From Cinnamomum chago (Eukaryota > Streptophyta > Magnoliopsida > Laurales > Lauraceae), in NCBI GenBank assembly GCA_038049695.1, contig CP142451.1, forward strand, positions 128,298,001 through 128,362,000: a stretch of DNA of 64,000 nucleotides, in the 5' to 3' direction. Shown in pieces: positions 5,798 through 44,800 of the stretch. The notes beneath the pieces were generated by a model. The model saw only the letters and a list, made by a program, of their open reading frames with translations, had not been told where the DNA came from and searched no databases. A program made the translations under genes and the position numbers. Position 1 is the stretch's first letter; each line of letters opens with the position of its first letter.

Positions 5798-7403
5798 CTA
5801 CTCGACGAGGCTGATAAGAAATGTACGGTAGTCACCCGACGTATCCCTGTGTATGGCATCCTTCAGTGATTTCTTGTATGCCTGGGCATACTCTTTCTTT
5901 ACATCTTCCATATCAATGCCAGCCCTTGTCACCACAGTCCTTATGAGTCTTGTGTCTGAGGTTCCTGCACCTTTCATGGCATTGAACAGCACCTGAGAAA
6001 ATATACAAATTTCAATGCCAAGTGGAAATGAAGTCTTCAATTTTTACTTTTCGGAAAAAAAAATAAAGAAAAGAGAATTACTGTAAAAATAAAATTTCGT
6101 GAAAACTGCTGCACACAAAGGGTGATGGGGGAGACTGATACCTCAGCAAAGTACTTTGCAGGATTCTTGGCACATCTCAAGAGCGTCAAAAGTCCATCCT
6201 CATAAGATCCAGATGTTTCCTTCTCCACTGCCTAAAAGGAATTGATCAATATCAATTTAGCTTATTCATATGGCATGTATGAAGTCTCAGTATACCAATA
6301 TTAAGAATTGTTCCTGGAGTTGAGGCTCGGAAATAAATATATAGTGTGAGATTTATGAACTTAAACTACTTCTTGTTAATTCCCCTTAATTTATAATGAG
6401 AATTCAACATTAATTAAAATAATAATAACCTACCATATTTTCAATAATAACCTACTTTTGAAATAATTTTGGAAAGAGTACCTGACTCTTTCAAGTCTCC
6501 ATGTTAACTCTATCCTAGTCTTTTTTTTTTTTTTCTTTTTCTTCTTTTTCTTTTTTGGCATAAGAGTAAAGTCCGAGTCATAAGTTTTCCAACCTTGCAT
6601 TTGATGATACCGGCTAGAATATTAAAATAATTAGAGTTGAAAACCCAATGACGCAATCAGAATTGGAAATTAAGATGGAGATTTAGAATGGGGAAAAACA
6701 AAAAAATTGTCAAGAATAATCAATAATCAGAGTGGAACGATGCAAAACAGAGGGTTAGACTAGAACATAAAATTCCTAAACCAACTTGCTACATACCCCA
6801 TTCTACTTCTTCTATCTCGTACTCACCAAATATAATTTAAGGGTTCCTTGTAGATTTTATTCCCAAGAATTATTTTATTAAGAATAACGAATGACTATTT
6901 ATCAAATTGCAATGACTATTTTTTTGGGTATAAGAAATACAATGACTTAGAATATAAAACTTAATTACACCCATTACAAGAATCTAATCGCACAAGAAAT
7001 AGAAAATCTAATCAGTTAATAACACTAGCAAAATATAATATAAATCTAACCTTATCATAATCTAAGATGAACTCATCCGTTCCATATCCAACATTATTTA
7101 GAGAAATATTAGATACCTTTTCAAGCGAGTGGCCGTACAGCTTCTGGTAGGCAGCATCAACGGCAGCCAAATGAGGTCTGTTTCGTTTCGTGAAAATATT
7201 AATGAAAGTCCAATCATTTGTTCCCCATATCTTCTCCCCATCTTGGTAGAGCTGTTTCGCATCCTCCTCTGCCATCTTCAGATCAACATTCGTTCCCTCA
7301 TCTCGTGCCTGGTAGTCTAAACATGCAATCAATAGCTGCAAGGCCACAACCCCATCTCTGTCATTACTCGATCTAACTCACAAGTGTGAAGTATCTAATC
7401 CGA

Positions 7404-7451
<48 letters not shown>

Positions 7452-7767
7452 CTCTTTGTGATGGCCGTTGAAGCGGAGATGGCTAGAATTAATTTCCTGT
7501 AAAAGTTGAGAACTGAATTTAGTCCGATAAGCTCGTTGAATATTGCATAGTTGTGATGGGGTCCGAGAACATATGACTTCAGTGACAGCTGCTTTATCAA
7601 AAGAGGTCACTTGTAGTGACTGCCAAACTATAGTTGCATCACGTTCTGATTCCTCAAGCATCCACAGCGAAACAGCTCTCTGTTATGTACATTACACAAG
7701 ACATCATCTGTATTGGAATTTAGATAGATGGGTTCCTTCAATAGCTTAGGATTTAAGTTAAAAAATT

Positions 7768-7817
<50 letters not shown>

Positions 7818-9993
7818 CTATGAATCTGGACTGGATTGATAGACCTTAATGTCACTGCTAAAAGTCCTGCTGAGGGTTCCTGTGGGGTTGGCAGTAAGGT
7901 CCAGACCAACTTTCTCTTTGAAGTCTCCCATCTTGCTAAGCTCTGAAGAGATGCGTTCACTTAGATCCTCTCCGTAGTTCTTTTTGTAATGCTGCTGGAT
8001 CAGTTGACGATGTGTTGCATCGCGCTTGGTAAGAACATGCACGAGCCGACCCACGTCGCACCCACGACCTGGAGTCATATAACAAAACCATCATTATATT
8101 ATAAAGAAAAGCAGCACATGGGTCGAGACTGGCTTCGGACTATATATGTCAGGACTAGAAACAGAGGGCAAAGTATAGGATGGGCTTAGTGGAGCCCTGG
8201 CTGTCCACTGCAGGAGGGTTGCAACCAGGATGAAACCTTCGATCGGAGGCTAATCAGAGATTCAGATATTCATTTCATTTCTGATTGTAGCAGGAGAAAA
8301 GAGTCTGAAACCCTCTTACATTAGAAAAAAAAAATTGTGCCGAAGGAGTGAATATCCATGGTGGGGCCCATGTATTTAAAAATGAGCTGCTCAAAATTGA
8401 ATGCTCTTATCCTTTCTCTTTCCCAGATTTCCTTCATATTTTGTTTTTATCCTTTTAATGACTATTCTTGTTACTGATAAAAAAAAAATTAGTGGAATTA
8501 CTCTAAAATTTTAGAGTAATAGGAGTTGGCCCCACCATAAAATAGACTATATAATGAATTATTGATCATGCTAGTCATCAATTATAGATCATGCTAGTCT
8601 TCGCACCGTAAGTCTTATGGTGGAGTCCAATCATATTGGACTATCAAGAACAATATATGGGTCGAATTATAGACCCAATTAAGTCTTTAAACTAAGGTCC
8701 TACACAACCAGAACAGGATAAAACACAATCATCTTGTATTTGAGTATCGAGAAACCATGCCTGGAAGATGATTTTAAAAAATAACTTAATAAAACATCAA
8801 CTAGTGGGACAATAGAGCAAACTTGAAAGAAGAGAGCGAAAAAGGCCAAAGAGGCCTAGCTGTGAGCTGGTGAGGGACACAAGTGTGCTCGTGTGCAAGT
8901 AGAGTGGGTGGATTCACCGTATAAAAATAAATAAAAAGAAGCAACGAGGTGTGTGTGTGTGTGTAATGGAATGAATGAAAGTGGGTGTACCTTTGAAAGC
9001 TGTATAAAGAGTGGTGGCGTCTTCCTCAGGCGTAGGAAGATTCACAACACCACTTGGAATGGTCCCTTTCTCCCGCACACTAGGATTTGCCTGCGTTTCT
9101 GACTGTTGTTGTGGCTGTGAAGCCGTGGTTGGAGGAGCATCACTTACCTTATTCACTTGTTGCTGTGCCTGTGCCTGAGGAGGAGAGACACTTACCTTCT
9201 GCTGGGGCTGTTGCTGTGGCTGCTGTGCCTGTGGAGTGACACTAACCTTCTTCTGAGTCTGGGGCTGTTGCTGTGGCTGCTGTGCCTGTGGAGTGACACT
9301 AACCTTCTTCTGAGTCTGGCGCTGTTTCTGTGGCCTTTGCCGCGGTTGCGTCGGTGGCTGTGGAGTAGAAACACTTTCCATGGGCTGTTGTTTTTGTGGA
9401 GTAGGATCACTAACCTTCTGTTGGGTCTGTTGAGGTCCCTGAGGCTTTCGCTGTGGCCGTCGTCTCTGTGGCTGTGGCTGTTGCTGTTGGTTTGCAGCAG
9501 CAGGAGTGTTGTTGTTGTTAGATGGAGCAAAACGTCGGCATAACTCTCCTACCTGCTGGTTCACGTCCTTGTATGCATCAAAAACAGTCTTCTGACTGGC
9601 GTCCATCTGCTGCTTGGCGTCCTTGTAGGCATCCGTGCTGCTGTCCATCAGCTCCTTCACAGAGCCCTTTGCATCCGAAGGTGCATCACCTCCTGCACTG
9701 TCGGTTGCAATATTTGGACTCTCTGTTGAGTCCTTATTGATGTTGGTTTCAATGGACGGCGGACCATCACCATCCAAGACCTCTTCATTCTCATCACCAT
9801 CGAAGTCCTCTTCATTTTCATTACCATCTATGGTGTTGTCTTCTTGCCCTTCCTCGACACCACCATCTTCTTCATAATCTTCATCGCCTTGATCATCCTC
9901 CTCTTCCTGAGTGATCTCTTCCACTGTTTCCCCATCAGCATCTTTTTTATCATCACCAACAATGACAGCTGATACAACATCTGTAGTAGCCAT
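5798..9993 (-). CDS. Annexin with long acidic and Gln/Pro-rich N-terminal extension
   Basis: Annexins bind acidic phospholipids in a calcium-dependent way. Six exons were read on the minus strand: 8991-9993, 7845-8068, 7452-7679, 7117-7335, 6142-6231 and 5798-5992, giving about 652 residues (the family norm is about 315). Residues 335-652 form the annexin core. Repeat 1 has the GRGCD calcium-loop motif (335-339), repeat 3 is NDWTFINIF, and repeat 4 has GAGTSD (596-601). Residues 1-312 are extra: acidic Asp/Glu-rich at about 20-76, a helical [18 protein letters not shown] repeat at 121-147, and Gln/Pro-rich at about 165-300 with a duplicated 19-residue unit. Exon 2 is 26 codons longer than in the neighbouring copies. 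An in-frame alternative donor at 7911 would remove 22 of them. The exon 3 donor is GTCCTC and runs into a (TC)n tract. The core assignment is firm. The extension is one open frame with exon 1's annexin start, but expression is unproven. Confidence 0.88.
7409..7448. repeat. (GA)n microsatellite at exon 3 donor of annexin 1
   Basis: About twenty GA units lie directly next to the exon 3/intron 3 boundary. On the transcribed strand the intron therefore begins GTCC followed by a pure CT tract. Confidence 0.95.
7771..7813. repeat. (TA)n microsatellite in annexin 1 intron 2
   Basis: About 21 TA units fill a quarter of the 165-bp intron between exons 2 and 3. Confidence 0.95.
9204..9317 (-). repeat. 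57-bp coding tandem repeat, two units
   Basis: Two adjacent, almost identical 57-bp units start at 9204 and 9261 inside annexin exon 1. Each encodes 19 residues built around [18 protein letters not shown] third, partial unit follows. The near-identity points to recent expansion. Confidence 0.9.
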
Positions 9994-10127: not shown

Positions 10128-10136
10128 CTTATACTG
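10128..10136 (-). promoter_or_regulatory. Candidate TATA box of annexin 1
   Basis: AGTATAAGG on the minus strand lies about 140 bp upstream of the ATG at 9993. A G-box core, CACGTG, lies at 10432-10437. Both are inferred from motif and position only. Confidence 0.4.
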
Positions 10137-11598
10137 AATTCAACTAATGAAAGCATGCCATGTGGCATGTGTTTATTGGGGACACTTGGCATCTCCTTGA
10201 TTTGCCAAGAAAAAGGTAGATTGACTCGAGTCATACTTTATTAAACGTGAAACATACAGTGCACTGTCGTTTAGTTCTTTCAATTTTTAACTGGGTGGGC
10301 TCTGAGTGATCCCATCATTCTGCATCCTTTCATCCGGTGTGGGGCCCAACAAGCACCATCAGTTGAACAAAAAATCAAAGTAAGTGTGGCCCAGTGGCGT
10401 CATCATTTGATGGTCATGGCTGACGGCTATTCACGTGCATGTTGCTTTTCATGTTTAGGCGAATTGGTTTTCTATTGGGTGAGGGCCCAATCCACATTAG
10501 TTTGGGCTCGGACCTCGCTTATAGCTCAGGCCGCAAGATCTACTTAGGCCCAACAGACCCCATTTTACATTTTTCTTCTAGTTTACTCTCATTACCTTTT
10601 CGATATTAAGTGTCCATCCATGCGTAGATTGGTGACCATTCTTTGCAATGAGATGTGTAACTGTCCATAATATGGTTTAGAAACTTCACTTCACTCCAAG
10701 AAAATTTTCTTTTAGCGGCGGAAAAAATCCGAATCAGAGTCAATTAGATAAGACTCGGTGACTTTTCGAGCTCGGTAATTTGGGCCGGTTCCATGAATCG
10801 GAACAAGGTTTTAAAATATGGTCCAAGGTTTACTCTTTTTTTTTCTTTTTCTTTTTTTTTTCATGGTTTTGTTCACTTACCACATGAAAAGTAAAACTAG
10901 ATCACCTTTTTCCTTTTCTTTTTGGTTCCTTTTTGCCACTGCTGTGAAGTGATTTCCATAACAAAAATTAAGGATCAACCAAAATATAAGGAGACTTCGA
11001 AGCCCATCTGGGCCTCGTTATACAAGGCCCAGCCCACTGAAACCCACATCATTGCCTTTCCAATACGTAGCATTAGCAAAAGATCCAGAGAAGTACCCAA
11101 AAACTTAGTCATCCGTGTTAATTAATGCTTTTACCCTGAAGCTAGGCCTACCTATAAGCAATGTTTATTTTGCAAGTGGTCTAGTAAAATTTATCGCAAC
11201 GTAATCTTAGCCATTAAAAACTTAATTTTACCATATTTGGTTGGTCAAAATAGGTGGGAATGTAAAGTTTCAGCTAAAAAAGTTACCAAACCCCAAAAAG
11301 GGTTACCCCATAAAAGCCAACTAAATTAACCTATTACTTTACCATTTGTTGACTTCTCATTTTACTTATCATTTACCTTCGCAGAAAGTATACTTTCCTT
11401 CTAGCTAACCATATCCTTTTTCTTTTCATTAGACATTTACATTGTCTTACTTTACCAATAAATAAAACATACATATTGCAGATTTTGTTGCCTTACGTTA
11501 TTTCTGCATTTAATGTGATTTTTGGCCCAACCCAAAATTTGGGTGGCTTTGATTCCTTGAATTTATGGCAATGTGTTTGTCCATTGTTACAATGCATT

Positions 11599-21921: not shown

Positions 21922-24900
21922 CTAATGATTGGGGCCCACTAGAGAAAGAAGGAAGGTCCGGTAATGGCCGGACGTCTCCGAGTGTACTTCATCTCCCAAC
22001 GCCTTTCTGTATTTCTTCATATATTCTGCTTTTATATACTGCAAATCAATCTCAGTCCTTGACACCACTACCCTTACGAGTGTTGAATCATCAGTTCCTA
22101 GGCCTTTCATTGCCTTGCGCAAGATCTGAGGAATTTTAAGAGTTGGATAAAGGATTGGGTACCATGTTTATGGTCACATGGAACATATGAAAATGCCATA
22201 CAAATTTCATAGGGAAGCAAATGGTTGATTGTTAAAATGCTTTTGATGCACGAGTTAAAACAGCCAAATGCAGTCTCCTAAACCACCATAACGGAACTTC
22301 TATCATCTAGCTATAGTTTGAAATTTAGATGCACAGCAAATCATAATGATGGCTCTTTCTGCAGAAAGTACACATAAGTTTACATTGCAGAGTGAATTGA
22401 AACAGTGCAGTTCAATGTCTGGAAATACCTTAGCAAAGTATTTAGCAGGATTCTCGGCACATCTTATGATTGTGAGAAGTGCAAACTCAAAGTGTCCAGA
22501 TGTCTCGCTTTTCACTACCTGTACAAAGACAATTTTCTCAAGAACCACCGACAAGATAATAAAACAGAATGTTGGCGACCCATAGGATAAAAATGAGAAA
22601 AACTGAAAACTATAACACTAAAGAGGGATTACTGGACCCCAAATAGATCAGAGATGAGGCTTTGAAGATTATGACGATGGCCCCAAAGAAGAAACGGGCA
22701 CTGGAATGAGGAGATCACCTTTTTGAGAGAACTCCCATACAAATGATGGTAAGCAATAGTAACAGCAGCCAAATGTGCCCAGCTCCGTTCACTGAAAATG
22801 CGAATGAAAGTTTTCTCATCTGTTCCCAGCCTTTTCTCCCCAGCTTTAAAGAGATCCTTGGCATCCCTATCTACCATATTTCGATCAACCTCCGGGCCTT
22901 CGTAACGTGTTGTGCTTACATATGCAAGAAGCAACTGCAAGACAGGAATAACTTCATTATTTTAAGCTTTGATCATACCAAAATGCCCCAGTGATAATAT
23001 ACTAAAGCGCCACTCTTTTGATGGATACAATAGTAAATGCCATCTACTGTGCAAAGGACAATAATACCAAAGATTAGTAAACGTTATAGCTCTCCATGCA
23101 CATCTTAGTCATGGCAGGTACATACACTGGTATAGAAAAATGTCAGCAGTGATGACCTTGACCTCATTAGTAGAAGATGAGTGAGAGCACACAAGTAGTA
23201 AGCCTTTGATATCATTAATATGCCTATAGCTTATGTGAATTTGAGCCTTTGATCCAATTGCGACAGCCCCAAGAGTGGAACTTTAAGATAAAGTGTTCAA
23301 ACTCTTCTTTTTTCTTTTTCGTTTTTTTTTTCTTTTTTGATCGTTAGTTCAAACTCAATTGTAAATGCATGTTTGGAAAATGGACAAACAAATGATAATT
23401 ATGCTACACAGGGTCACATGGCTCAGGATTGTTTGGCGAAAGGCAGAAAGCATGATTGAGTTAAAACATGCCCGCACATTTTAGAATATTTTAAAGCCTA
23501 ATTTAACGGAAAAGTTCCTTAACTCATTTTAAATGTGAAAAAATAAACCAATTGACGGAAGTCCATCTATCAAATATGGTCTTAGTGATTAAAAAGAGCA
23601 AGTAATTAATTAAAGAGAAAAAAAAAAAAAAAAAAACTAGTGGGCTACCAACAGCCAATTGACGAAAGTCCATATACCAAATATGGCCTTAGTGATTAAA
23701 AAGAACAAGTAATTAATTAAGGAAAAAAAAAAAAAACGAGTGGGCATTGACAAGGTTGATAGCCTTAGGAAGACAGATTTGTGCGTTGTGTGGGGAAGTG
23801 AAATAACCTTTTTGTGATCACCAGAAGCTTGATAGTTGATGTCATTCTCAAGGTGAACGCCGAACCTTGCATAGTATGCTTGTTTAAATACTTGTATCTG
23901 GGATGACGTCCGGGAACATATCACTTCAGTGGCAGCTTTCAGATCAACAATATCCCCACTTAATGCATTTCTCACTATGGTTGCATCGCGTCCCGCTGGA
24001 TCATGAATCCAGAGCAAAACTGCTTTCTACGATACGAGGGAAATCGTGAGCATGTGTGACACAAGAAAAACCATATTCATTCACAGTTTACATTTTGAAT
24101 TTAAGACCTGACCAGAATTAACATGGAGAGGACGGCAGTCACTACTGAATTATTGCCATTATAATGATACCTTAAGGTTCCCACTAAGCTCTGAAGACAG
24201 ACGCTTGGTGAGTTCTTCTGAATACATTGCTCTGTATTCTTGCTGTATGAGAGCACGCTGCGTTACATCACGATGGGCAAGAATATTGACTACTTGTGCA
24301 GTGTCACAGCCTAATCCTGAGTAGTGATCATAAAAGAGCAGTTGGCTTCAAAGAGAATATTAATAACAGTTTCTCTACTGTAAAAAGAATAAAAAGATAT
24401 ATATATATATATATTTTTTTTTGGGGGGGGGGGGGGGGGGGGGGGGGGGGTTGGCGTGGCGTGGGTTTGCATAGCTTCTCTAATTTGTCACAACCATTAT
24501 CTACCTCGAAGCACTGTAGGGGTCAAAATTTTAAGTCTGCACAAGGTAGCCCATTCAGTTGTAACCTCATTTGTCCCTGGCCCTTTATACAACATGAAGG
24601 ACCATAGCTCGAGGATGAGCATGAAGATCCCCTTTTATCTTCTTTTTTTTTCTATCCCTGGGAGCCTGCTCACAGGGATCTAGGACTTTTGCAGTATAAC
24701 TGTCAAAAATCCCCACATTTTGATGAAGTTGGTGCAAGAAATACAAAGAACGGGTGAAAGGAAGATCATGGTCAATTAGTGAATTATATACCCACATCCA
24801 GATTTAACAAAACCATCTCCTTCATTCTTTTCTTGCTTTATTTTTCTTTTCTTTATATTTTAAGATTTGTGATTTACAAGCACCATCACTAGAACATCCC

Positions 24901-27900
24901 CAAACAGAACCATAGATCCATCAAAAACCTGCACCACTCGATGTGGATACTCCAATACTCCATTAGGACAAGACTTATGGATCTTCCCTTTAACAACAAC
25001 TTGAACAATACACTTAACTGTTCATAACTCTATACCCACTGAATGTTTGAGACTAATGTACTGAATGTTACGGAACTTTTTGTGTTGAAGTAGTTTTTTT
25101 TCTTTTTTTTCCTTTTTTCTTTTGAATGGTGAGGTAGTGTTTTTTGTTAAAAGGACGTTTAAAAGGTTACAAAATTTTCTTCCATGCAATATGCATGCCC
25201 CACCTCATGAGGGGAGTGGCAAAATATTGTGTCCAGGTTATCAACATGTAGGCCTCACCGATGTACACACTGCACATTCATGAGTGCTTGCACGGAAAGC
25301 ATGGCCAGTGATGCCAGCAAATCAAACATTTTATCCAAGCCATCATCATCATCTTAGAGTTAACCCATCAATCAAGATTCGAGGGTCAGCTGGAAGATTT
25401 CTACTATTTAAATAGGGAAAAGGCTCAATCATCTTATTTCCTAACCTTCTAACGTGCAAAAAGTTCTCTATGTGTGCATGATGAGGAAAGTCTCAAGTTG
25501 CCACTTACACAAAATGCCTAGCGTTAAAGGTGCGGCAAACTATCTACTTAACACCCCCCCTCAAGTCGAACCATGGTTCAAAATCACGGTATCAGTCGCG
25601 GTATCGGCCGGGACAAAAAACCGATATCATATCGGTATCAGTCGCGGTGTGAAATTTTTTTCTTATCCAAAAAAATTCGCAAAAAATACCTAAAAAATCC
25701 AGAATATTAGAAAATGCTAGAAAATAATATATATTTTTTCCACTAGTAACAACAATAAATCAAAATATCGGCCATCTTAAGCCATGATTCCCGTTTGTAT
25801 CGCTGACTCGCTGTCTTATTATGGTAAAATAAAAAGAAATGATATATTATAATTCAAATATGAAAAAATCCGAAAATAAAAGAATTAAAAAAATCCAAAA
25901 TGATGTGTATGAGTAGATCTATCATCTATACACTATTAATAAGCCATTAGTATTTAGTATCATAAATACTCCAACAATTGTTTTTTAAAAAAATAGAAGA
26001 TTTAAAAAAAAAAACACATTTTTCTACACCCAAAATCATATATATGATTAGATCTAGTATGAAAGTGTGTAGACCTATGAGAAGAACACAACCCAAACCA
26101 AAAAATGATATGTCAATGATCTTTTCATTCATTTCTATGCTTTATCTAAAAAAAAAAATAACAAATAACACATAATAATAAAAATAAGGGAGTTAAGTTG
26201 ATTTTCTCTTACCAAATAAAATGATTTCTTGAAGAAAGAGTGGTGGAAAAATGGAAGAGAGCCAAGGAGGAGGGGCTGCTCTAAGGAGGTGAGGAAAAAG
26301 GAAGCAGACGAGGGAATGGGGGAAAAGAAAAAAAATTATGGTTTATTCCACTTGGCTGATACTTTCAAAATATCGGAAAATATCAGCCAAAATATCCGCT
26401 AAATCGATATTTTTAAAATATCAGCCGAGATGGTCCGATATTTTGGGATATTTTGGTGGCCGATACCGATTCCAGTATCGCACCAAAATATCGGACCCGT
26501 TCGGACCGATGCCGGTTCATATCAGTCGATATGAACCGGTATCGGCCGATATTTTAAACCATCAGCGGGACACCGCCCATACTCGAAGCACACCCACACA
26601 AGGCACAGCATGGGGCCATTTTGCCCTGCGCATATGCACCTGCACACAAAATGCGACACGGGGCTTTTTTGTTCGATGCACCCAGGACATGTTGGCTCTA
26701 CTACCATCTCAAGTTGCAAGCCATTTCACCCAAAATGCCTATGCATTAAAGGTGTGGCAAATTAACTACGTAGCAGAAAGGAATGTAACGAATGGCATCT
26801 TACCTCAATGGTAAGATATGGCAGTCCTCACCGGGGTGACCACATTTCAAACCTGGCAACCCCCTTCCTTTCATATGCAAGTCCCTATTACCTCGCATGT
26901 ACGAGTTTGTACTCCTTGCATATGCAGGTTGAAAAAGATATTTTTAATGGGTGTCTGCAATTTCTAGATTGGTCTACTCAAACAATCAACTTAAAAGTGT
27001 GCAGAAATAAACAATATGCAGCGGAAATAAAATCAACAAGCACACACCACAAGGACACCAAATTTAAGGTGAAAAACCCTAACTGGGTGAAAAACCACCG
27101 ATCCAAACTGGATCAAATCAAACACTATGAGTCTCGCAATTACAAGAAACTCAGATCTCTTCTCCAGATATCCCCTACTCAAGGATTGAAGTTACCTTGT
27201 GTCGCTTCACGCTTCAACGACTTCACACCGTTGATTGCAACAGATTCAATCCAGCGTCGGACTCCTCAAATCTTCTCGCAAGAAGAAAATCTTCTACAAA
27301 GGATGCAGAAGAACTGGCTCTAGAGAACTTGGCAGCACAACTTCATAAAAACTCTAGAGAAGAAAACTCTCAATGATAATTTCTAACTCAGCACTTTGAG
27401 AGGTGAGGATCTTTTTTTTTGGAAGAGCTCTTGAGTCCTTTAAATAGCCCTTGGGACGTGCTTCAAGTTGCCTAAGATGATTAGGACTCAAACAAGCAGT
27501 TTGAACACAATTATAAAAACAAGTTTCCAAAATTCGTACAGCTCTGCGCCTCGTTCGCTCGAGCGCACGTTACATCCGCTCGAGCAGATGAGCCTCTGTC
27601 TGCACTTCGCTCGAGCGAATCTTGGACCGCTCGAGTGGACCCCATTCTAGACATGATCCGGAAATTCAGCACAATTTCTTCAGCGGACTTCTTCTAATAC
27701 TTTCAAACTTTCATCTTCTGAGTCCTTCCAATCTTCTATCTTCAGAGTCCTTTTCTAAATAAAAAATTACAACTCAAAAGACCCAGAGTTTTGTCCAACT
27801 CATGAATTTAGCCAACACTAAAATTCCTAACACAAGTTCCTCTTACCTCGCATGTGCAAGTCTCTCGGGGACAGGCCCCTTTGCTCGAACACCAAAAAAA

Positions 27901-28916
27901 AAGGAATGTAAACTCCTTGAAAGAAAACATTTCAATATGAAATACTAAAATACTACAACATGCATTATCATATCAATTATACTACCTTGGGTGACTGTTG
28001 CTTCTTTACTTGGCCTATTCAAAACGTCCTTTCTGTAACTCCATAGTCTAAAATGTCTTTCCTCACTGTATAATTATAGGTATTTGCTAGTCTCCCCTTT
28101 TTTTCTAGTTCCCTGAACATGTAACCTCTCAATAAACCTCTTATCAAAGCAATAAACTTATCAAATACAATGTTTGTTTTGCAAAGCAAAGTGTGTCTAA
28201 AACATTCTCCTCGCTAAAGCAATCTTATAAACGCCCCATGATGTTCTCACCCCAAAAAAAGATGCCCTTTCCTGTTACACAAAAAATCTCATGTAGGACC
28301 AAACTCAAAAAAAAAAAAAAAAAAGGGTTTCGGGTTGGGGTTGGGGGAAGTCATAAAAGGGGGAAAACAAGGAATTTAGTACTTTTGACAAATCTGTTGG
28401 CCTTCAATAGAAGGTCTGATTTTCATGGAAAAAAAAAAAAAAAACACATGTCCCTGATGTTAATTACAACCATAAGAGACTAACCCCACTCATCAAATAT
28501 GAAGAAAATAAGAAGAAACCCCATAAAAAAAAAAAAAAAAAAAAAAACCAGAGTTACAGAGAGAGACTCCAATATCCAAAACCTGCTTGAGAAAAAAAAA
28601 AAGATATATCTCCAATACATGAACCCAATAATAGAAACCAACAAGAACCCACAGAGAGAGATTCCAATATCCAAAACCTGCTTGAGAAATACAAAAAAAA
28701 AAAAAGATATATCTCCAATACATGAACCCAATAATAGAATCCAACAAGAACCCAAAACCAATTAAAGAACAAAAAGATAGTTAGAACAAGAACATGTGCA
28801 AAATACTAAGAAAATGAGAAGATGAAGAAGAAGATGATACCTTTGAAAGCTTTGTGGAGGTCAATCGCATCTTGTCGGGGTGAAGTGAGCACCGGTGGAA
28901 CGCTCAGAGTCGACAT
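21922..28916 (-). CDS. Annexin, D5/RJ4-like, intact
   Basis: This is a calcium-dependent phospholipid-binding protein of the cytosol and membrane surface. Exons on the minus strand are 28841-28916, 24171-24316, 23808-24026, 22719-22934, 22429-22518 and 21922-22125. All introns have GT/AG ends, and the product is 316 residues, the normal plant annexin length. The start [10 protein letters not shown] is the only in-frame ATG in exon 1. Repeat 1 carries GLGCD (26-30) and repeat 4 carries GLGTD (257-261), the two calcium loops usually kept in plant annexins. Repeat 3 has [10 protein letters not shown] with the IRI tripeptide discussed for actin or nucleotide binding. The C-terminus is LLSLVGPNH. 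Intron 1 is 4.5 kb and carries two mobile-element insertions. This is the canonical copy of the array. The N-terminal and C-terminal signatures resemble the D5/RJ4 group; that subgroup call is from memory of the family. Confidence 0.95.
24423..24450. repeat. Homopolymer of 28 G in annexin 2 intron 1
   Basis: An uninterrupted run of 28 G follows a T run, about 110 bp on the promoter side of exon 2. It is C28 on the transcript strand. Confidence 0.95.
25573..26562. mobile_element. TIR element with CGGTATCGGCCG termini, in annexin 2 intron 1
   Basis: The ends are inverted copies: ATGGTTCAAAAT on the left, and the complement of ATTTTAAACCAT on the right. GGTATCGGCCG-type motifs lie just inside both. 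The element is about 990 bp, AT-rich inside, with no transposase. Sequence flanking it on the left (25491-25552) recurs on the right (26707-26774) as a diverged direct repeat. It is probably a non-autonomous DNA transposon. Confidence 0.65.
26952..27832 (-). mobile_element. Candidate solo LTR (copia-like) in annexin 2 intron 1
   Basis: Read on the minus strand the block begins TGTTAGGAATTTTAGTG and ends near TTGCAGACA, the TG...CA form of an LTR. The plus-strand segment ACACCACAAGGACACCAAAT is typical of copia LTR ends. A TATTTAAAGG motif could serve as its own TATA box. Four CTCGAG palindromes lie at 27558, 27579, 27610 and 27630. No clean target duplication was found, so the left border is approximate. 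Confidence 0.6.
28555..28752. repeat. ~98-bp tandem duplication near start of annexin 2 intron 1
   Basis: Two adjacent copies both contain TCCAATATCCAAAACCTGCT and ATCTCCAATACATGAACCCA, with an A run of variable length in each. The block lies about 90 bp inside intron 1 from exon 1. Confidence 0.9.
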
Positions 28917-34522: not shown

Positions 34523-35353
34523 CTAGTTGTTGGGACCCACAAGGGAAAGAAGGAAGCTCCTGTACTGACCCGAGGTCTCTGAGTGTATTGCATCTCCCAA
34601 AGTCTTTCCATATTTCTTCCTGTATTCTGCCTTTATATACTGCATATCAATCTCAGTCCTTGACACCACTATTCATGTAAGCGTTGTATCATTGGTTCCC
34701 AGGCCTTTCATAGCCTCGTGCAATAGCTGAGAAATACTCAGAGATAAAAATTAAGTAAGACCTTTCATAGCTCAAGTTGCAAGCGGTTGGAATATTAGGC
34801 ACAGTAGATTTTGAAAATTTTCCAATGCATTTGAGATGATGTAGAATTAAATTATCACCAGACTGATTTTTTGCCTTTTATGTGCGGGGTTTCTTTGTAA
34901 TATTCTGGCTTTAGAGATTCATTTCAACTGTGAGTAGAGGTCAAGTGAGTGTCAAATTAGACCTGGTGCAAGATCATAGTAGTAGTAAGGATGAAAGGGA
35001 TACATTGATCAAAGGTGGGTCGTAGTGGAGCCGATATAGTGATCTAAATTATTAATTTGAAGGGCTCCACTTCTGATCGCGTATAGTAACACTCATGAGA
35101 GACATGCATGACATAATGTTTTAGAATGATTATTTCATGGCCAACAGCACAGATGGCCAGCTCCAATTCGATTTAAATTGGATAAGTTGGTTTCCTATTT
35201 GTACTAGGAACCAGTTTCCTATTTGACTAAATAAATACATCAATATATACTCTCAATCTCATGATAAGAAAGAAGTTCTTCATGGATATTACTGTGTTTC
35301 ATCTTCTTTATGGGGCCCCGCCGAGATTATACCATGAACTTCAGCAATGAAAC

Positions 35354-37702
35354 TGTCACGACCCGGCCCGAGGTCAGAGTGATTAGGGTTAAACCCCGGG
35401 TCGCGATGTTAATCATACTTACTCCCGTAGATCCGAAATAACCGAAGTTAAAACGAATCTACAAGGGATCTTGCATACGTACCTGTCAATGTATAGTGCG
35501 GAATATACAAATAATATACATTGACAACCATTACCAAAACAAATCACACACTTTACTATGAACAGTAAAGTTACTTTACATCATTTCAGTTTTCCTATTA
35601 TCAACCACTGCATATTTAAAATACAATGCAGGGGACATCATTTACATATGTACAATACCAAAATGAATCTATCAAAATCATTTCTAAAAGTTCTCAAAAG
35701 ATTTCCACGTGTCCGCTCTCAAATCATGTCTATTCGGCTAAACCTCCTGGAGGTAGCGACTGGGCTTCCTCCGCTGACGGGACGGCCTCGGAGGTACTGG
35801 CACGGCCAACTGAGCCTGTAACATCATCAGTAATACCATGAACACGACGGTTCAACAAGGTATACATATATTTATGACATTTCATAATTCCTAACAATAT
35901 ATTATCTACAGTGCGAAACAGTTCATAAGAAATACTATTAACAATAATATATGCTGGCAACTACACTAGCAAGGGTTTCAACTCCAATCATTTCTTCCCA
36001 AAAAGGAAACATTTCATATTCATTTATTCATAAGATTCCATATTTTTCAATTCATATTCATTCACTTACTTACATTCAGCATTGATAGGGCTCGTCAGTC
36101 CTATGACCTTTCGGTCCAATGCGGTGAGATCTCCCAGTGTCTTGATCAGAGATCACTGGTGTCCCACGGAGCTCCGGACGCTCCCAATCCCCTCTACTTC
36201 AGTAGGAATAATCATTTCAGTTACTTTTCATAACCATTCATTTATTATTTCTCAATTTTCAGTCAATACGGAGTTTGGAAACCACTAGGTAGTGCCAGAC
36301 CTGTGAACGATTCCTATTCATCTCATTCTAATCCTAAATTAACAATTTAACCAACCACGGAGTGTAACTTTGGTTATCAATGCAAGGATTACTTTTGATG
36401 ACATTACTTATATGATTATGCATTATGATAACCCTAGTTAACACACTTATGGAGGTATAACACTACTCCTAGTCATAATTGACTCATAACGATCTTAGTT
36501 GTTGTAAAAATCCAAAACTCACTGGACTCGATTAGAGTCCCCCAATCGCGAGGACCGTTAGGTCCAAGCGATTGGCTAAATTTTCCTTACTATTAATAAT
36601 TTGGTCACTCACTAAGCGTACACGCTTAATCCCGGAAATTCAGACTCAAAGTCACTTTTCCGAATATTTTCCATTGGGCCGGTTGACCTGGCCCAGGCCC
36701 GGTTAACCGGCAGTTGTAAAGGATAAATACTGAACAGTGTTTTCGTCAGGCTTTTTGGGCCTAACTCAATGGGCCCGGTTAACCGGGCCATAATGGCCGG
36801 TTAACCGGCCACACTGCAGAAACAGAACGTGAGTTCTGTTCTGCAGTGCAGTACATGGGGTTTTCAACCCTTTTCCTTCCTAGTGCCTCCTGGACCTAAT
36901 GAGCAATTAAAACATGCATTTAACAAGGAAATTTAAGACTAATCATTCCAACTAAATCATCTCAACTTAAAGATCATAAAATCCATAAATGGCCTCATAA
37001 ATCAAGTTAACAATGGAATTTTTCCATTTCCTTCCATTCAAATCCATGCAAACTCACTCATAACCATAAACATATGCATGACTTGCCTTAAATGAAGCTT
37101 TGCTCTTTGCTTAGCTTGGATTCACTTCACTTGGAGCTTTAAAAACCAAAAGAACTCTAAAAACTCTATACAATGGATGAAGATGATGCTTAAGAGGATG
37201 AAGATGAAGTCTTCTTAACTTGATGCACCTCAAATCCACCTTTGATGGAGAACGAATGGAAGAAGAAGAAAACAAAAGAAACGGCTGCTGGAGAGTTGCC
37301 TAGGGTTTGATTCAAATGAATCAACTCATTTGCTTATATAAGGTTTCAAATTACATTTAAGCCCATTAATTCCCATTAATTCTATTTCAAGTCAAATCCA
37401 AGCCTACTTGCTTCATTTCTCATCGAATCAATTCAAGTCCTTTACACAATTTATCGTACTCGTCGAAATACACATGTTGGTATCAAGACTTTCCGTATTT
37501 GACGAAATACGTATAAATCCGTATTTATACGCAATTCCTTTCCTAATCTTGTTTAGCACTTCATTAAGCCTAAAGTCTTCATTTTAGGCTAACGCAAATT
37601 CAGTTGGTGATAAATCACCATTAATTCATTTAAACCGGCTTAATTAGTCTTAAGTTCGATTAATTAGAGTTAATTGTAATTAACTCGGGACGGAGTCTAA
37701 GA
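35354..37702 (+). mobile_element. Solo LTR, TGTCACGACCC family, copy 1 (annexin 3 intron 5)
   Basis: The LTR is 2349 bp, starting TGTCACGACCCGGCCC and ending CGGAGTCTAAGA (last CA mutated). It is flanked by the perfect target duplication GAAAC (35349-35353 and 37703-37707). It has no coding region. It aligns along most of its length with 39231-41621, but a central cassette differs and carries GGTTAACC palindromes. TGTCACGACCC starts are common in plant Ty3/gypsy LTRs; the superfamily is inferred. Orientation is set by the TG start and could be reversed. Confidence 0.9.
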
Positions 37703-39230
37703 GAAACCCACCAACAAGACTACCAAGGGTGGCCACTCATGATAAAGATTAATTTTACCAATAGAATATTGGCAGTTTAGCACAGTGAGATTGTATGAAA
37801 ATACCTTGGAAAAATATTTAGCAGGATTCTCTGCACACTTTAAGATCGTTAGAAGCCCAAACTCTAAGTGCCCAGATGTCTCACTTTTTACTGCCTGTAA
37901 ACAAATTCATTTAAGAGTCGCTCACAAGCAACTAACACCAAACATCCTCAGCACAAGGATGAAAAGGAAGAAATGGATTGAAAAGAGCAATCATTAGTAC
38001 AATGAAAACATTTACTAAAACAGAGATAAATTAGAAATTGCAATGAGGACAATAGCTTGTTGAGTGAACTTCCATACATATGATAGTAAGCAATGGAAGT
38101 GGCAGCTAAATGCGCCCAGCTTCGTTCACTGAAAATGCGAATAAAGGTATTCTCATCTGTCCCCAGTTCTTTCTCCCCAGCTTTGAACAGGTCCTTGGCA
38201 TCCTTCTCTATTGTATCTCTATCAACCTCTGGGCTTTCGTAGCGAACTGTACTTACATATACAAGCAGCAGCTGCATCATAAGAAAACTTCATCATTCTG
38301 AACTTAAATCAATACCAAAACAGCCCAGTGCATGCTAAATGCAGTTCTTTGAAAGATGACATACTAAATTTCATCTGAAGTGCAAAAGAGAAATAACACT
38401 AAAAAAAGAACTTTATATGCACACCTTGACCATGGATACATGCCTAGAGAGACTAGAGAGATGTTTGCCACAATTAACTCGAAGGCGTGTGAAACATGAA
38501 ATAGGATGAAAACGATAAGCTACATTGAGTGGAATTCATCCTAACATTATTGAGGACTACATACCAATTTACACAAAAGAATGGATTCATCATCATCTCT
38601 CTTAACCTCTCAACAACCCTCCTGCCTCTAATAAACAAACCTTTAGTTGAAAAGACAATATGCTAATAAGAGTAAGCCTTGTGATATGAAAGCTTTAGAT
38701 TGGTAGTGATGAAGCCACTACAAACAACCTGTTTGCATATCGCTTAACATCAACCGAATCTTTCTAGAGATGAAAGATTGCCTACAAGAGATCAGCTCAT
38801 TGTGCTGGCATATAAGTTCAACAATAAGTACTACCAGAAAACATATAAAGTGATAACTGATGCAAAGTGGAGGCATTTTGTCATATGTTTGTCGATAGAC
38901 CAGCTAAAAGGAGATAGGTTGCATCATATTGGTGGTCACGTATAAAAACCCTGAGACACTTCTATACGAGCTTTATTTTGATAATGACTTAAAATAGGAT
39001 TGGGCGAGAAAGTAGAACTCACAAAGTGAACCCTAATTAGATGAAGGCCTACATAATGACAATGATAATGATATGAGGAGAGACTTCCATTAACAACTCT
39101 GCGTCAGCCACATGGAGTTGAGCACTCACTTTGTCTGTGATGGATTTGAGTAAGCAACTTCAAGGTTAGAGGTTCAAAATCCATGCTTGAGGGATATTTC
39201 ATATTTGGGTAAGTTGGTGACATCTTAATA

Positions 39231-41621
39231 TGTCACGACCCGGAACCGAGATCAGAGTCATTAGGGTTAACCCCCGGGTCGCGATGCTCATACTTACTCC
39301 CGTAAATCCCGTTTAACCGAAGTTACAACGAAGCCTACAAGGGATCTTACATACAACCTGTCAATGTACAGTGCGGAATGCATACAAATAATATACATTG
39401 ACAATACCTAATAAAATGAATCAGAACATTTACTTTAAACGTTAAAGTTTACTTTACATTGGTTCAGTTCCCAACTATCAACCACTGCATATTTACAATA
39501 CAATGCAGGGTATAACATCTACATTACTTACAATACCAAAATGATTCTACAAAAGAATTTCCACAAAGTTTCCAAAAGATTTTATGTTTTCTTCTCTCAA
39601 ATCACGTCCACTCCGCTAGACCTCCTGGAGGCAGCGCATGAGCCTCCTCCGCTGACGAGACGGTCTCGGAAGGACCGGCACGGGTAACTGAGCCTGTAAT
39701 ATCATCAGTAATACCGTGAACACGACGGTTCAACAAGGTATACATATATTTATAACATTTCATAATTCCTAACAATTCACTGCTTAAGAGTGCTAAACAA
39801 TTCATAATGAATACCATTAATCATAACAATATACTGGCAACTACACTAGCAGGGGTTTCAACTCCATTCTATTCATTTAATCTTCCAAAAGGAAGGATTT
39901 CATATTCATTTCAGTGTATGACTTTTTAGTCAATGACCTTTTGGTCCAGTGTGGTGAGATCTCCCAGTGTCTTGATCAGAGATCACTGGTGCCTCACGGA
40001 GCTCCGGACGCTCCCCTTCTCATCTACTGCAGTAGGAATAATCATTTCATTCATTTCTCATTTCATTTAATTCAATGAGTTCAGAAACCACTAGGTAGTG
40101 CCAAACTTGCTAACAATTCCTACCAATCTCAGTCTAGTGTTCAATTCATCCTCGAACCAACCATGGAGTGTAACTTTGGTTATTAATGCAAGTATTACGA
40201 TTGATGATATTACTTATATGATTATGCATTAGAATAACCCTAGTTAACACATATGGAGGTTAGACACTACTATTAGTCATAATTGACTCATAAGCGATAT
40301 CAATTTTCGTAAAATCCAAAACTCACTGGACTCGAATCGGTCAGCTTCGAATAAACTGGTCAATTTCGGCTACCTCGGCGGCTACCTGGCGGTTAGCCGC
40401 GACGGTGCAGGCGGCTAGCCGAAATGCACTGGCGGCTAGCCGAACTAGGTTCGGTTAGCTCGCGGTCAGCTTTCCAGAAGCTGAATTTCTGACAGAAATT
40501 TTCTGACTGATTTCGGTCAGCTCGGCGGTTACCCCGCGGTCACCTCGCGGTCACCCCGCGGCTAGCCGAAATTCCAATTTCGGCTAACCGAATTTTGGCG
40601 GTTAGCTTTCCAGAAGCTCGCCAAAATCAGATTTTCTGGCGGTTAGCTGCGCGGTTAGCCTCGCGGCTAGCCGAAATGCGCCCAGAAACACAGTTTCGAG
40701 CTTCTGAAGCTATGAATGAAAATCACATATTTGAACTCAAGGAGTTCACACAAGTTCCATAAAAGCTTAAATTCATAGAAATGCATATACTTGCCTTAAT
40801 TGAAGCTTGATAAACACTAAACCCTCATTACATAACCTAATCCATGCATAGGGTTTCAACCCTTAATTAAATCAACATCTAATTCATCATTTATTTCCCC
40901 ATTAAAGCCACTATAACTTCTCAACAATCATCAAGCATAAACATATGTATCTACTTGCCTTAGATAAAGCTTGAGTGTTATAAACCCTTTCTTAGCTTGG
41001 ATTTAGAATGGAATTCCCCTCTTTGAAGCTTGGAACTCAATACAAACCCAAGAAGATCTCCAAGAAGATGAAGGAGTTGAATCTTTTTCACTTGCATCAA
41101 CTTGCCTTCACTCTCGACGAAGAAGAAATCAACGAAAGAAGAGAAACGAAGGAAGAAATGAAAAGAGGAAAAGTTGCCTAGGGTTACTGTACGTGGATGA
41201 ACTCAATGAGCTCATTTCTCTTATATAAGGGCACTTTTTACATTAAGCCCCCCATTCACTTGCTCATTTACATTTCGAGTCAATTCAAGGCCCATTTGAT
41301 CCAAGATTCTTCAAATCAATTCAAGCCTTTTATAAAAGTTATCGTACTCGTCGAGATACACATGTTGGTATCAAGAGTTTCCGTATTCGACAAAATACGT
41401 ATAATTCCGTATTTACACACAAGTCCTCAATATGCTCATTTGAGCTTCATTTTCCATTTAATTCTTTTCAATTCATTTCACAACCATAGTTCCTATTTCA
41501 TTAAGCCTAAATAACTCATAGTTAGGCTAATTCAATTTCATTTAATCATTAAACCGGCTTAATTAGTCGTAAGCTCAATTAATTAGAGTTAATCGTGATT
41601 AACTCGGGACGGAGCCTAACA
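39231..41621 (+). mobile_element. Solo LTR, TGTCACGACCC family, copy 2 (annexin 3 intron 3)
   Basis: The LTR is 2391 bp, starting TGTCACGACCCGGAACC and ending GACGGAGCCTAACA. The target duplication TAATA is perfect (39226-39230 and 41622-41626). Shared blocks with copy 1 include CTCCCAGTGTCTTGATCAGA and AACACGACGGTTCAACAAGG. Its central cassette (about 40340-40690) holds CGGCTAGCCG palindromes in place of the GGTTAACC ones of copy 1. Confidence 0.92.
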
Positions 41622-41831
41622 TAATAAAAACAGAATCATAGATAAGGAAGATTTATCTGAAAACATAAAAAAAAAATTGACTTGGACATGTGATGTGCCC
41701 ATTTTTCAATTAACACTGATTCGCACTAAGAACTTTCAATGCCACCTTATCCTTTGTGACTGGCATGCATCGAACTGGGCTCACAAAGGGATTCTCAAAA
41801 TCGATATCGGTGGCCAATTCGTACTCGAAAT

Positions 41832-41840
<9 letters not shown>

Positions 41841-41868
<28 letters not shown>
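41841..41868. repeat. (TA)n tract in annexin 3 intron 3
   Basis: About fourteen TA units lie 10 bp from exon 3. Confidence 0.9.
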
Positions 41869-41870
<2 letters not shown>

Positions 41871-44800
41871 AGATGACCTTTTTGTGATCACCAGAAGCTC
41901 GAAATTCGATATCTTGCTCAAGCTGAACGCCAAACTTTTCATAATAAGCTTGTTTAAATACTTGTATCTGGGATGAGGTTCGGGAGCATATGATCACTTC
42001 AGTAGCAGCCTTCATATCAATGACGTCCCCACTTAATGCCTCTCTCACAATGGTTGCATCGCGTCTTGCTGGATCATGCAGCCAAAGCAGAACAGCTTTC
42101 TACACCATAGCAATTACAGCATGTGATGCCCCCCAATAAATCAATGCAATATTTTCTTTAGGTACAATTTTTAGAGTATGAACAGATGATACCTTAAGGT
42201 TACCACTAAGTTCTGAAGAAAGCCGCTTGGAAAGCTCTTCAGAGTACATAGCTCTGTATTCTTGTTGGATGAAAGCACACTGTGACACATCACGATTGGA
42301 AAGAACATTGACAACCTGTTCAGTGTCACAGCCTAATCCTGAACATAAATCAGAAAAAAATCAGTTGGTCTTAAACAGAGTACCCGTAGAATTTTTTATT
42401 TTTTTGCGAAAACATAGCTTGGATTGGCATTGGAAAGAGAGATAATTGAGCTCCGATCCAAAACAACCAAATTATATAGTTTGGCTGGCTGAAATAATCA
42501 TTGCTCGCTTTTCATTTTGGCCATTTATAAAAAAAAACGCACCTTAACTAATCAGCGGAAGGTAATTGGAAATGGATGCATTACAATTTACAACCCTAAA
42601 CTCAGCTGTTGGGCTAAGTTGTCTCCAAGATACAATGAAGCCTAGCTAAAATTAAAGTTGATATGTGGTTGCTAGCTCGAAAATAACCTTGAACCCAGCA
42701 GGTCGTTAAGTAACCAATACCAAAACCCAAATGATCCTATGCAAAATGTTTGGACAATAACAATCATTGTAGTTAATAACATCATCTCCATGCCCACAAC
42801 ATCCAACCAAGCACAGAAGCAGGCAAGCCCAGTGAACTACAAAACAAAGGCCTCCTCTTTATAGCTTCAAGCTTCAAGCACAAGCCATTATAGTTAGGGA
42901 CCAAGTCTACTAGACCAACATGGTTAGATCTTTTACAAATGTGTACTTCCTTCTCAATTAATCCAATGTGGCATTCTATAAAATGATACGTAAGACAAAT
43001 TTCCAAACAAGAACATTCTAGAAAGGGCTTGTTTTCCAATGGGATTTCAACACTTTCTCTGAACAGAACCGCATGATTATGAAAGAAGCCTTTTCAAAAA
43101 TCACCAACAATGTATGCGACCATTGCAGTACTAAGAGTTGCAACAAAGCTTCACCTTGCGCAGGACATACAGGAAAAAGACTAACCCATTCATTCAAACC
43201 TGAATTCATTCAACCCTTAGATGGAATTAAGCCAAAAACCAAGCACCTCTTAAAACTTTTTCATAAACATAGCATCACTTTGAAAACTACAAAATCATAC
43301 GTCTTCATATAAGCAAATGAAGTAGCAAGAACTCAAAGCTATTCACAGAGATCAAATCACAATTATATAGATATTTAATGACATTTAGCTAGAGAAGAAC
43401 CTTTGAAAGCTTTGTAGAGCTCGATGGCGTCTTGTCGAGCCGAAAATGGCATCGGTGGAACCATCAGACTCGACATGTTCCCAACACCACCAACGAATTA
43501 CGCAACTTTGTCAACAATAAATACTCGCGGCTAAATTAGATATAAGTTTTCTTGGATAACCATTCCTATCAAAACAAAACAAAGATTACATCTCTGCATG
43601 GGATACATTCGTTTTCCAAATTGGTGATCTCTAGGTGTGGTTCATCAATCTTTATTTATTCTTTCATTGACTGACTTCTGGGAAGCTGAAGCTGCATGGT
43701 ATTAAGAAAGCAGATAAGTAAGAGAAAGAATCCACGGCTGTGATTTATAACACATATGAAGAAGCCTGAATAATCAAATCACAGCCGTTAAATGAATAGT
43801 TTAAAGCAGGAGAAAACAAAGATAGCACCACCTAGCTTTGCATCTGATACGATTCGCAAAGGCGCATGTGGGGCCCTTTGGCCTTGGACTTGGACCCACC
43901 ATATACCATCAAGTGGGGTGTGTAAAGGGCATGTAAATATGCTCCCCTTTATTAATATGAGGGTACACTTTTGTAAATCGAATCCCTTCACACATAAACC
44001 TCCCTTGAATTGTCACCAATCTTAATTTCGCATTGTCTCAAACATTAATCACTGTTGAATTTATCAAACAGATTAGATCAATCCATAGGCAATAAACGTT
44101 GAAAACTAAAGTTATGGACTAGGATCATTTGCTCAGCTTGGTATCTCGTATTCTCTTGATTTACATGAGAACATTTACCTTATTTTGTGTTCATTGACAT
44201 GCATCAAAGTGAGGCCAAAAAAAAAGTGGACACTTATTTATTAAGGGGAAATGCCTCTGCATTGTCTAGCATTCCCTGTTATGTATGTTATTCAAATATG
44301 ATTTATGCTCTCCCATGGATAAATGGGTTCCATGAACTGTCGGTACCAACAGCCTTGTGGGTCCGGCCTAGGGCCTGGGGAGGTGGGGGATCATAGGATT
44401 TTGCTGTAACCCACGGTCCCACATAATGCAAGATTTCAAGTCCATTTGTTCATCCTAACCTCTTGATATGCAGCCTTTAAGTTTAATGGTTTTATAATGT
44501 ATCAAGTTTTATAAGATCAATCTAGCAATGTAGTGCTGTTCAGATGGATGTAAAAAAACATGAATCTGCTGTGCAGACGCCCTTAGGAGGAGTATTTTTC
44601 TACAAGCTGATTTATACCTGTGCTTGATTGGCGTCTAGGTCCAAGCCCTTTATGCAGTACAAGTATGGATTCTACTTTTTAATTTTGACTCAGGTACAGG
44701 TGTGGATCCTGTAACTTGGACCCAAATGGGTATGGATTTTAAATTTTTAACTTTTATAATGTTAACATTAAAATTGTGCGCATTTTATTTCCTCTGTTAT

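Follow-up and report, generated by a model that had tools for sequence, protein, structure and literature searches.

The 64,000-nucleotide stretch of Cinnamomum chago DNA analysed here (the window) was found to carry annexin genes on its minus strand, designated A, B and C. Gene A was modelled as six exons encoding 652 amino acids, with no internal stop codon and with all introns bounded by GT-AG. Exon 1 (positions 8991-9993, 1003 nt) encodes a 334-residue tail and the first base of a split glycine codon, and ends at a canonical donor. Exon 2 (7845-8068) encodes annexin repeat I, with an insert of approximately 28 residues placed at the helix D/E boundary by alignment of genes A to H (D to H being described below). 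It is followed by exon 3 (7452-7679; repeat II), exon 4 (7117-7335; repeat III, starting with a GEKIWGT motif), exon 5 (6142-6231; containing KETSGSY) and exon 6 (5798-5992; repeat IV, with KGAGTS and RDTSGDY, up to the stop codon).

Exon 1 of gene A is open from its ATG to a phase-1 donor (TTCAAAG^GTACAC, with ^ marking the junction) and joins in frame to the acceptor at 8068, whereas 9 and 27 stops interrupt the two remaining forward frames. A frame open by chance was ruled out, as a fully open frame was obtained in 0 of 5000 simulations from the composition of exon 1 and in 0 of 5000 from that of the window (second-order Markov). The tail ATG is the first downstream of a TATA-like box at 10133-10128, none lying between this box and 9993, and the start context of the exon is common to the paralogues F and G. 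Subtracting the approximately 25 residues of an ordinary annexin N-terminus from the 334 residues preceding the donor leaves a tail proper of approximately 310 residues. The first-pass annotation had described a plant annexin with an N-terminal tail of approximately 312 residues, encoded by a 1003-bp exon 1 that is open throughout and ends in an annexin-type donor; the gene model and the simulations bear this out.

The core of gene A contains four PF00191 annexin repeats (Pfam, E 1.2e-64). In the available part of PMC3487801, plant annexins are described as having a first intron in phase 1 and later introns in phase 0, and as being without a long N-terminal region. The complete models with canonical splice sites (A, D, E, G and H) all have the first core intron in phase 1 and the later ones in phase 0, and all depart from that description by their long N-termini.

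Three blocks were distinguished in the tail of gene A, following 14 residues that appear weakly hydrophobic by eye. The first is an acidic block of 61 residues (residues 15-75, positions 9769-9951, minus strand) with 23% Asp and 30% Glu, and thus 53% acidic residues. The second is a helical repeat part (residues 108-155, 9529-9672, minus strand), which by eye contains two units of approximately 18 residues of the same kind as those expanded in F and G, where such units are numerous. The third is an Asn/Gln/Pro block (residues 156-316, 9046-9528, minus strand) with 30% Gln, 17% Pro and basic patches, and with no Tyr, Phe or Trp. AlphaFold2 run on the single sequence of the tail returned a mean pLDDT of 53.5, with one confident helix at residues 108-155 (block pLDDT 68-92) and mostly low confidence elsewhere. 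The acidic block, the short helical repeat and the Gln/Pro-rich block with basic patches proposed from the first reading were therefore recovered by composition and by the predicted helix. The tail is predicted to be largely disordered; of the earlier claim of a disordered tail, the length is established by the gene model, whereas the disorder is deduced from low pLDDT, which fits it and is weak evidence by itself. Derivation of the tail from a known domain was rejected, as the tails of A, G and H matched no Pfam family at its cut-off.

Gene B (21922-28916, minus strand; exon 1 at 28916-28841) encodes an ordinary annexin of 316 amino acids with a short N-terminus. Gene C (34524-43476, minus strand; exon 1 at 43476-43401) is of the ordinary type, and is probably a pseudogene, as its last exon contains an in-frame TGA and its exon-4 donor is lost. 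Both are presumably plant annexins of the D5 / RJ4-like type. They share with gene A the same core, exon order and intron phases (phase 1 for the first core intron and phase 0 for later ones), and differ from the tailed genes in their N-termini of 25 residues and in lacking both the repeat I insert and the promoter block described below.

The genome (1.06 Gb, 14 contigs) was searched using the annexin family and the tail of gene A as queries. The tandem array was found to extend beyond the window, with four same-strand paralogues carrying long tails, namely D (495 amino acids, tail of 174), E (562 amino acids, tail of 241), F (tail of 558, with two in-frame stops, TAA and TAG, in tail exon 1b) and G (810 amino acids, tail of 488). 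On another contig, gene H (C3:24168311-24173668) encodes 660 amino acids with a 332-residue tail in one exon. This gives six tailed genes (A, D, E, F, G and H) with tails of 174-558 residues, five of them intact by sequence, a count that is a lower bound as the first exon was not identified at a minimum of four further annexin places. Ordinary N-termini were found in the 11 other annexins with an identified first exon, namely B, C and nine elsewhere, these nine having been detected through their similarity to ordinary first exons. The earlier view of gene A as lying in a tandem array with an ordinary copy holds insofar as B and C are real, but gene A is no singleton, and the tailed family is older and larger than gene A alone. 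Two partial tailed copies were also observed near C1:128245-128248 kb and 128199-128201 kb, at which a core was not detected.

Two further features were found to accompany the tail. Upstream of the tail ATG, the elements TGACTCGAG, CACATGG and a TATA box occur in this order in 6/6 tailed genes and in 0/2 ordinary neighbours (B and C), with the motifs having been picked after looking at the sequences. In gene A (minus strand) these correspond to the palindrome TGACTCGAGTCA at 10222-10233, CACATGG at 10158-10164 and TATAAG at 10128-10133, the last lying 140 nt upstream of the tail ATG; the tailed genes all have TATAAG or TATAAA after CACATGG. A BLAST search with the 600 bp upstream of gene A matched H (82% over 56 bp, E 2.6e-11). 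The second feature is the repeat I insert of approximately 28 residues between helices D and E, present in 6/6 tailed genes and 0/2 ordinary ones and located on the same side as the Ca2+ loops. The leaders of D, E, F and G were also observed to contain a short upstream ORF (ATGGAG...TGA), which gene A does not have.

Comparison of core exons 3, 4 and 6 (with D to G excluded) identified H as the best match to gene A in each, among the annexins compared. H was followed by C and then B for exon 3, and by B and then C for exon 4. For exon 6, B came next, and C, with its broken last exon, ranked behind four matches from other annexins. In 3/3 core exons tested, B or C is thus the untailed annexin that best matches gene A, from which it follows that the tail arose inside plant annexins and is independent of the tails of animal ANXA7 and ANXA11; the independent plant gain proposed earlier is supported. 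In a tree of the core, H and the array were placed apart from B and C with a support of 0.997, while the branch placing A received only 0.43. Core dS was 1.02-1.56 between tailed genes and B or C, and 0.87-1.00 between the array and H (0.87 for A and H). The tail was probably gained once the tailed lineage had separated from B and C (core dS 1.0-1.6) but before A and H diverged (0.87), a bracket that is thin and in which dS values of such size are rough. The gain can therefore be dated by comparison with the ordinary copies, as had been anticipated, but only roughly.

The tail of A aligned with those of E, F and G far above shuffled sequence (0/300 shuffles reached each score) and with that of D at 9/300. 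Sequence homology between the tails of A and H was not supported, as their alignment was no better than that of window-shuffled sequence (147/300 reached it), and none of the D, E, F and G tails aligned with that of H above shuffles (182-255/300). As the A and H tails cannot be aligned above shuffles, their common origin is one that we infer from position, from the promoter and from the order of the blocks, which is similar in A, F, G and H. Acquisition of the tail from another gene was rejected: among the best candidates scored, all 11 genomic matches of A's tail fell within the array or among the tail copies of contig C2, and H's tail matched itself alone.

These matches include tail-exon units separate from an annexin core. 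A minimum of nine were identified at C1:128090814-128117790, upstream of gene G and mostly approximately 2.5 kb apart with one gap, and eight fragments were identified at C2:83058057-83062315, mostly at a spacing of approximately 608 bp. The units at both places comprise the end of the tail exon and the first 45-49 nt of its intron without the repeat part of that intron, and the annexin-family search of the genome detected no annexin repeat there. At least five of the nine C1 units have TGACTCGAG upstream. Five C1 units can be read from their start; two of these carry a frameshift and two others a single stop, while the fifth is open (466 codons). The readable C1 units look like mostly decaying partial copies, the C2 array seems to be satellite-like and grown from an annexin tail exon, and we read the C2 and tail-only copies as derived from F/G-like genes. 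As the copies end in donor-like sites, they could serve as alternative first exons giving one core several arms. This belongs to a broader idea, namely that plants possess a tethering annexin class of their own, in which arm, repeat I insert and promoter are inherited as one package, with a portable arm whose copies act as alternative first exons or as free arms associating with tailed annexins. With 4/5 readable units broken, the units were rejected as working alternative first exons, and the broader idea is considered very improbable.

In the models of D, E, F and G the tail is split by a phase-0 intron that is lacking in A and H, with donors AAG^GTTAGT (E), GAG^GTTAGT (F and G) and TCG^GTAAAA (D). 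The intron of E (L010:3497-3680) is 184 nt in length. Of its 41 matches, 17 are dispersed and lie away from both the array and the C2 copies; they cover positions from approximately 45 to 182 at 70-85% identity, with 12 of them starting at position 41-45. The simplest reading would be insertion of a dispersed repeat into a coding exon in which GTTAGT and a CAG-rich stretch were already present, followed by removal of the repeat through splicing. Loss of the intron in A, which was first favoured, was dropped since the outgroup H also lacks it and the intron of E matches dispersed copies. The matches suggest that D to G gained the intron by repeat insertion, a step that we infer given the low support for the branch placing A.

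How far the tail is maintained was considered through its indels and substitutions. Indels in the tail exon were multiples of three in 16/16 cases for the pair F-G and 5/5 for D-E (21/21 in total), compared with 9/36 and 6/15 in the introns of the same pairs (15/51; Fisher p 1.4e-8), although in one intron control, D-E intron 3, 5/5 were also multiples of three. The tail-exon indels include lengths of 54 and 162 nt, equal to one and three 18-residue units, and the frame is kept in the F-G tail indels although F has two stops. The frame is clearly kept, as would be expected of translated sequence, and constraint on the tail residues appears modest at best: tail dN/dS was 0.60 (0.39-0.85) for F-G, 1.15 (0.76-2.22) for the recent pair D-E, and 0.47-0.73 for A against the other tailed genes, values that are uncertain as these alignments are poor. 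The D-E figure is compatible with neutral drift, and the tail might accordingly be seen as a neutrally drifting, repeat-grown extension tolerated since it is disordered, with the core alone being functional. The range of lengths (174 to 558 residues), the broken state of F, the failure of the A and H tails to align above shuffles and the nearby tail-only units, 4/5 of the readable ones being broken, would agree with this, and it is given an appreciable but minor share of the probability; the preserved frame, the F-G ratio, the similar block order in A, F, G and H and the retained promoter speak against it. It is far less probable that gene A is itself a dying copy in an array consisting mostly of pseudogenes. 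C and F do carry stops, A has a weak donor (exon 2, GTCTAT) and tail-only fragments exist, but A, B, D, E, G and H are without internal stops and have canonical introns. Core dN/dS was 0.41-0.54 for A against D to G and 0.30 for A against H; that of the broken F toward H (0.29) is not above the latter, and so this measure reflects old constraint and is no proof that A is maintained now. Core dN to H is 0.26 for A, the lowest among the array copies (0.27-0.31 for the others), which argues against decay.

Gene A could also yield the 652-residue protein as a minor product only, with its Gln/Pro block partly spliced out at donors within the exon or with intron 2 often retained. Five in-frame, phase-0 donor look-alikes of the form AAG^GT(A/T)AGT were identified in this block (minus strand, first base at 9414, 9303, 9246, 9195 and 9147). 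They match 8-9 of 9 positions of the donor consensus, two of them at 9/9, compared with 6/9 by hand count for the true donor, and in the model of E the donor is likewise AAG^GTTAGT. The five allow 24, 13, 6, 3 and 0 in-frame internal removals, respectively, of at least 60 nt and ending at a CAG or TAG, and the exon-2 donor is weak. Joining any of the five to the acceptor at 8068, however, shifts the frame and gives a stop after 22 codons, and the longest possible internal removals contain 13-16% T compared with 35-44% in the modelled introns of A. Base composition thus stands against removal of the block as an intron despite the in-frame possibilities, and splicing of this kind is held to be unlikely. 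On account of the frame shift and the T-poor block, we think that the look-alikes are read as Lys-Val-Ser. Resemblance to animal annexins raises another explanation, in which gene A would be a plant counterpart of ANXA7 and ANXA11, with condensates driven by its Gln/Pro block and anchored on membranes or organelles by the annexin core. In human annexins A7 and A11, a head exceeding 100 residues precedes the four core repeats (PMC3588008, available part), an arrangement shared by gene A. As described in the accessible portions of PMC10634317 and PMC10955470, these heads are Pro-rich (180 and 196 residues, PMC10634317; about 24% and about one third Pro, both papers) and phase separate. Gene A likewise has a long, probably disordered tail with a Gln/Pro-rich low-complexity block on an annexin core, but that tail, at 334 residues, combines acidic, helical and Gln/Pro blocks and has little proline (10.2%, with 16.9% in the tail of H). 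Its Gln/Pro block is devoid of aromatic residues, whereas a 30-residue stretch of ANXA11 printed in PMC10955470 has four by hand count. The blocks also vary much among the paralogues. Of the likeness to ANXA7 and ANXA11 claimed in the first-pass annotation, the layout of a long tail on an annexin core thus survives, while the composition, with its low proline, strong acidic block and lack of aromatics, does not; the resemblance is weak, and a condensate-forming counterpart is rather doubtful.

Group 3 LEA-type helical repeats have a period of 11. The tails of A, F and G resemble them in having charged repeats, with an AlphaFold2 helix in A and units of approximately 18 residues multiplied in F and G, and differ from them in that this period is 18, with no Pfam LEA match in the tails of A, G and H. 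Dictyostelium and fungal annexins also have long N-termini, with a low-complexity head on an annexin core; they belong to other lineages. Among the matches listed in a literature search largely confined to papers outside subscription, no tailed plant annexin was found. A Cinnamomum transcriptome paper labels eight genes as 'annexin A7/11' via a KEGG number (PMC6231050), which is taken as a default label, tails being unmentioned in the available part of that paper. Similar annexins of other plants may sit unremarked in databases.

With regard to function, Ca2+-site motifs were identified in repeats III and IV of gene A, and the pattern that detected them gave fewer in D, G and H. The D/E loop of annexins carries a Ca2+-coordinating acidic residue (PMC3588008, available part); repeat I of A reads GRGC, and its insert lies beside the acidic residue. 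From what is known of the family, Ca2+-dependent membrane binding by the core is likely. The reading preferred here is that the tailed annexins form a subfamily in plants, bind membranes in a Ca2+-dependent manner and bear a disordered arm, which possibly acts as a tether. Its anatomical and evolutionary part is advanced with high confidence, the statement as a whole is judged reasonably probable, and the tether mechanism itself is offered tentatively. Under this proposal, the core of A would bind acidic membranes via repeats III and IV when Ca2+ is present, with the arm extending into the cytosol to provide flexible spacing and binding. Within it, the acidic block may tune the timing of core binding, the helical units may add weak contacts with membranes or partners, and the Gln/Pro block may permit weak self-association or partner binding, the whole amounting to a Ca2+-gated membrane tether. 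As the sequences show, the arm changes in length by frame-keeping steps, some of them whole 18-residue units.

If these genes are expressed, plants would possess an annexin that acquired a disordered arm independently, and the contribution of such an arm to a Ca2+-dependent membrane binder could be read from the tailed annexins as a natural test. The intact copies of the array carry arms of 174-488 residues on related cores. Furthermore, the array seems to record the appearance of an intron in a low-complexity coding exon through insertion of a dispersed repeat.
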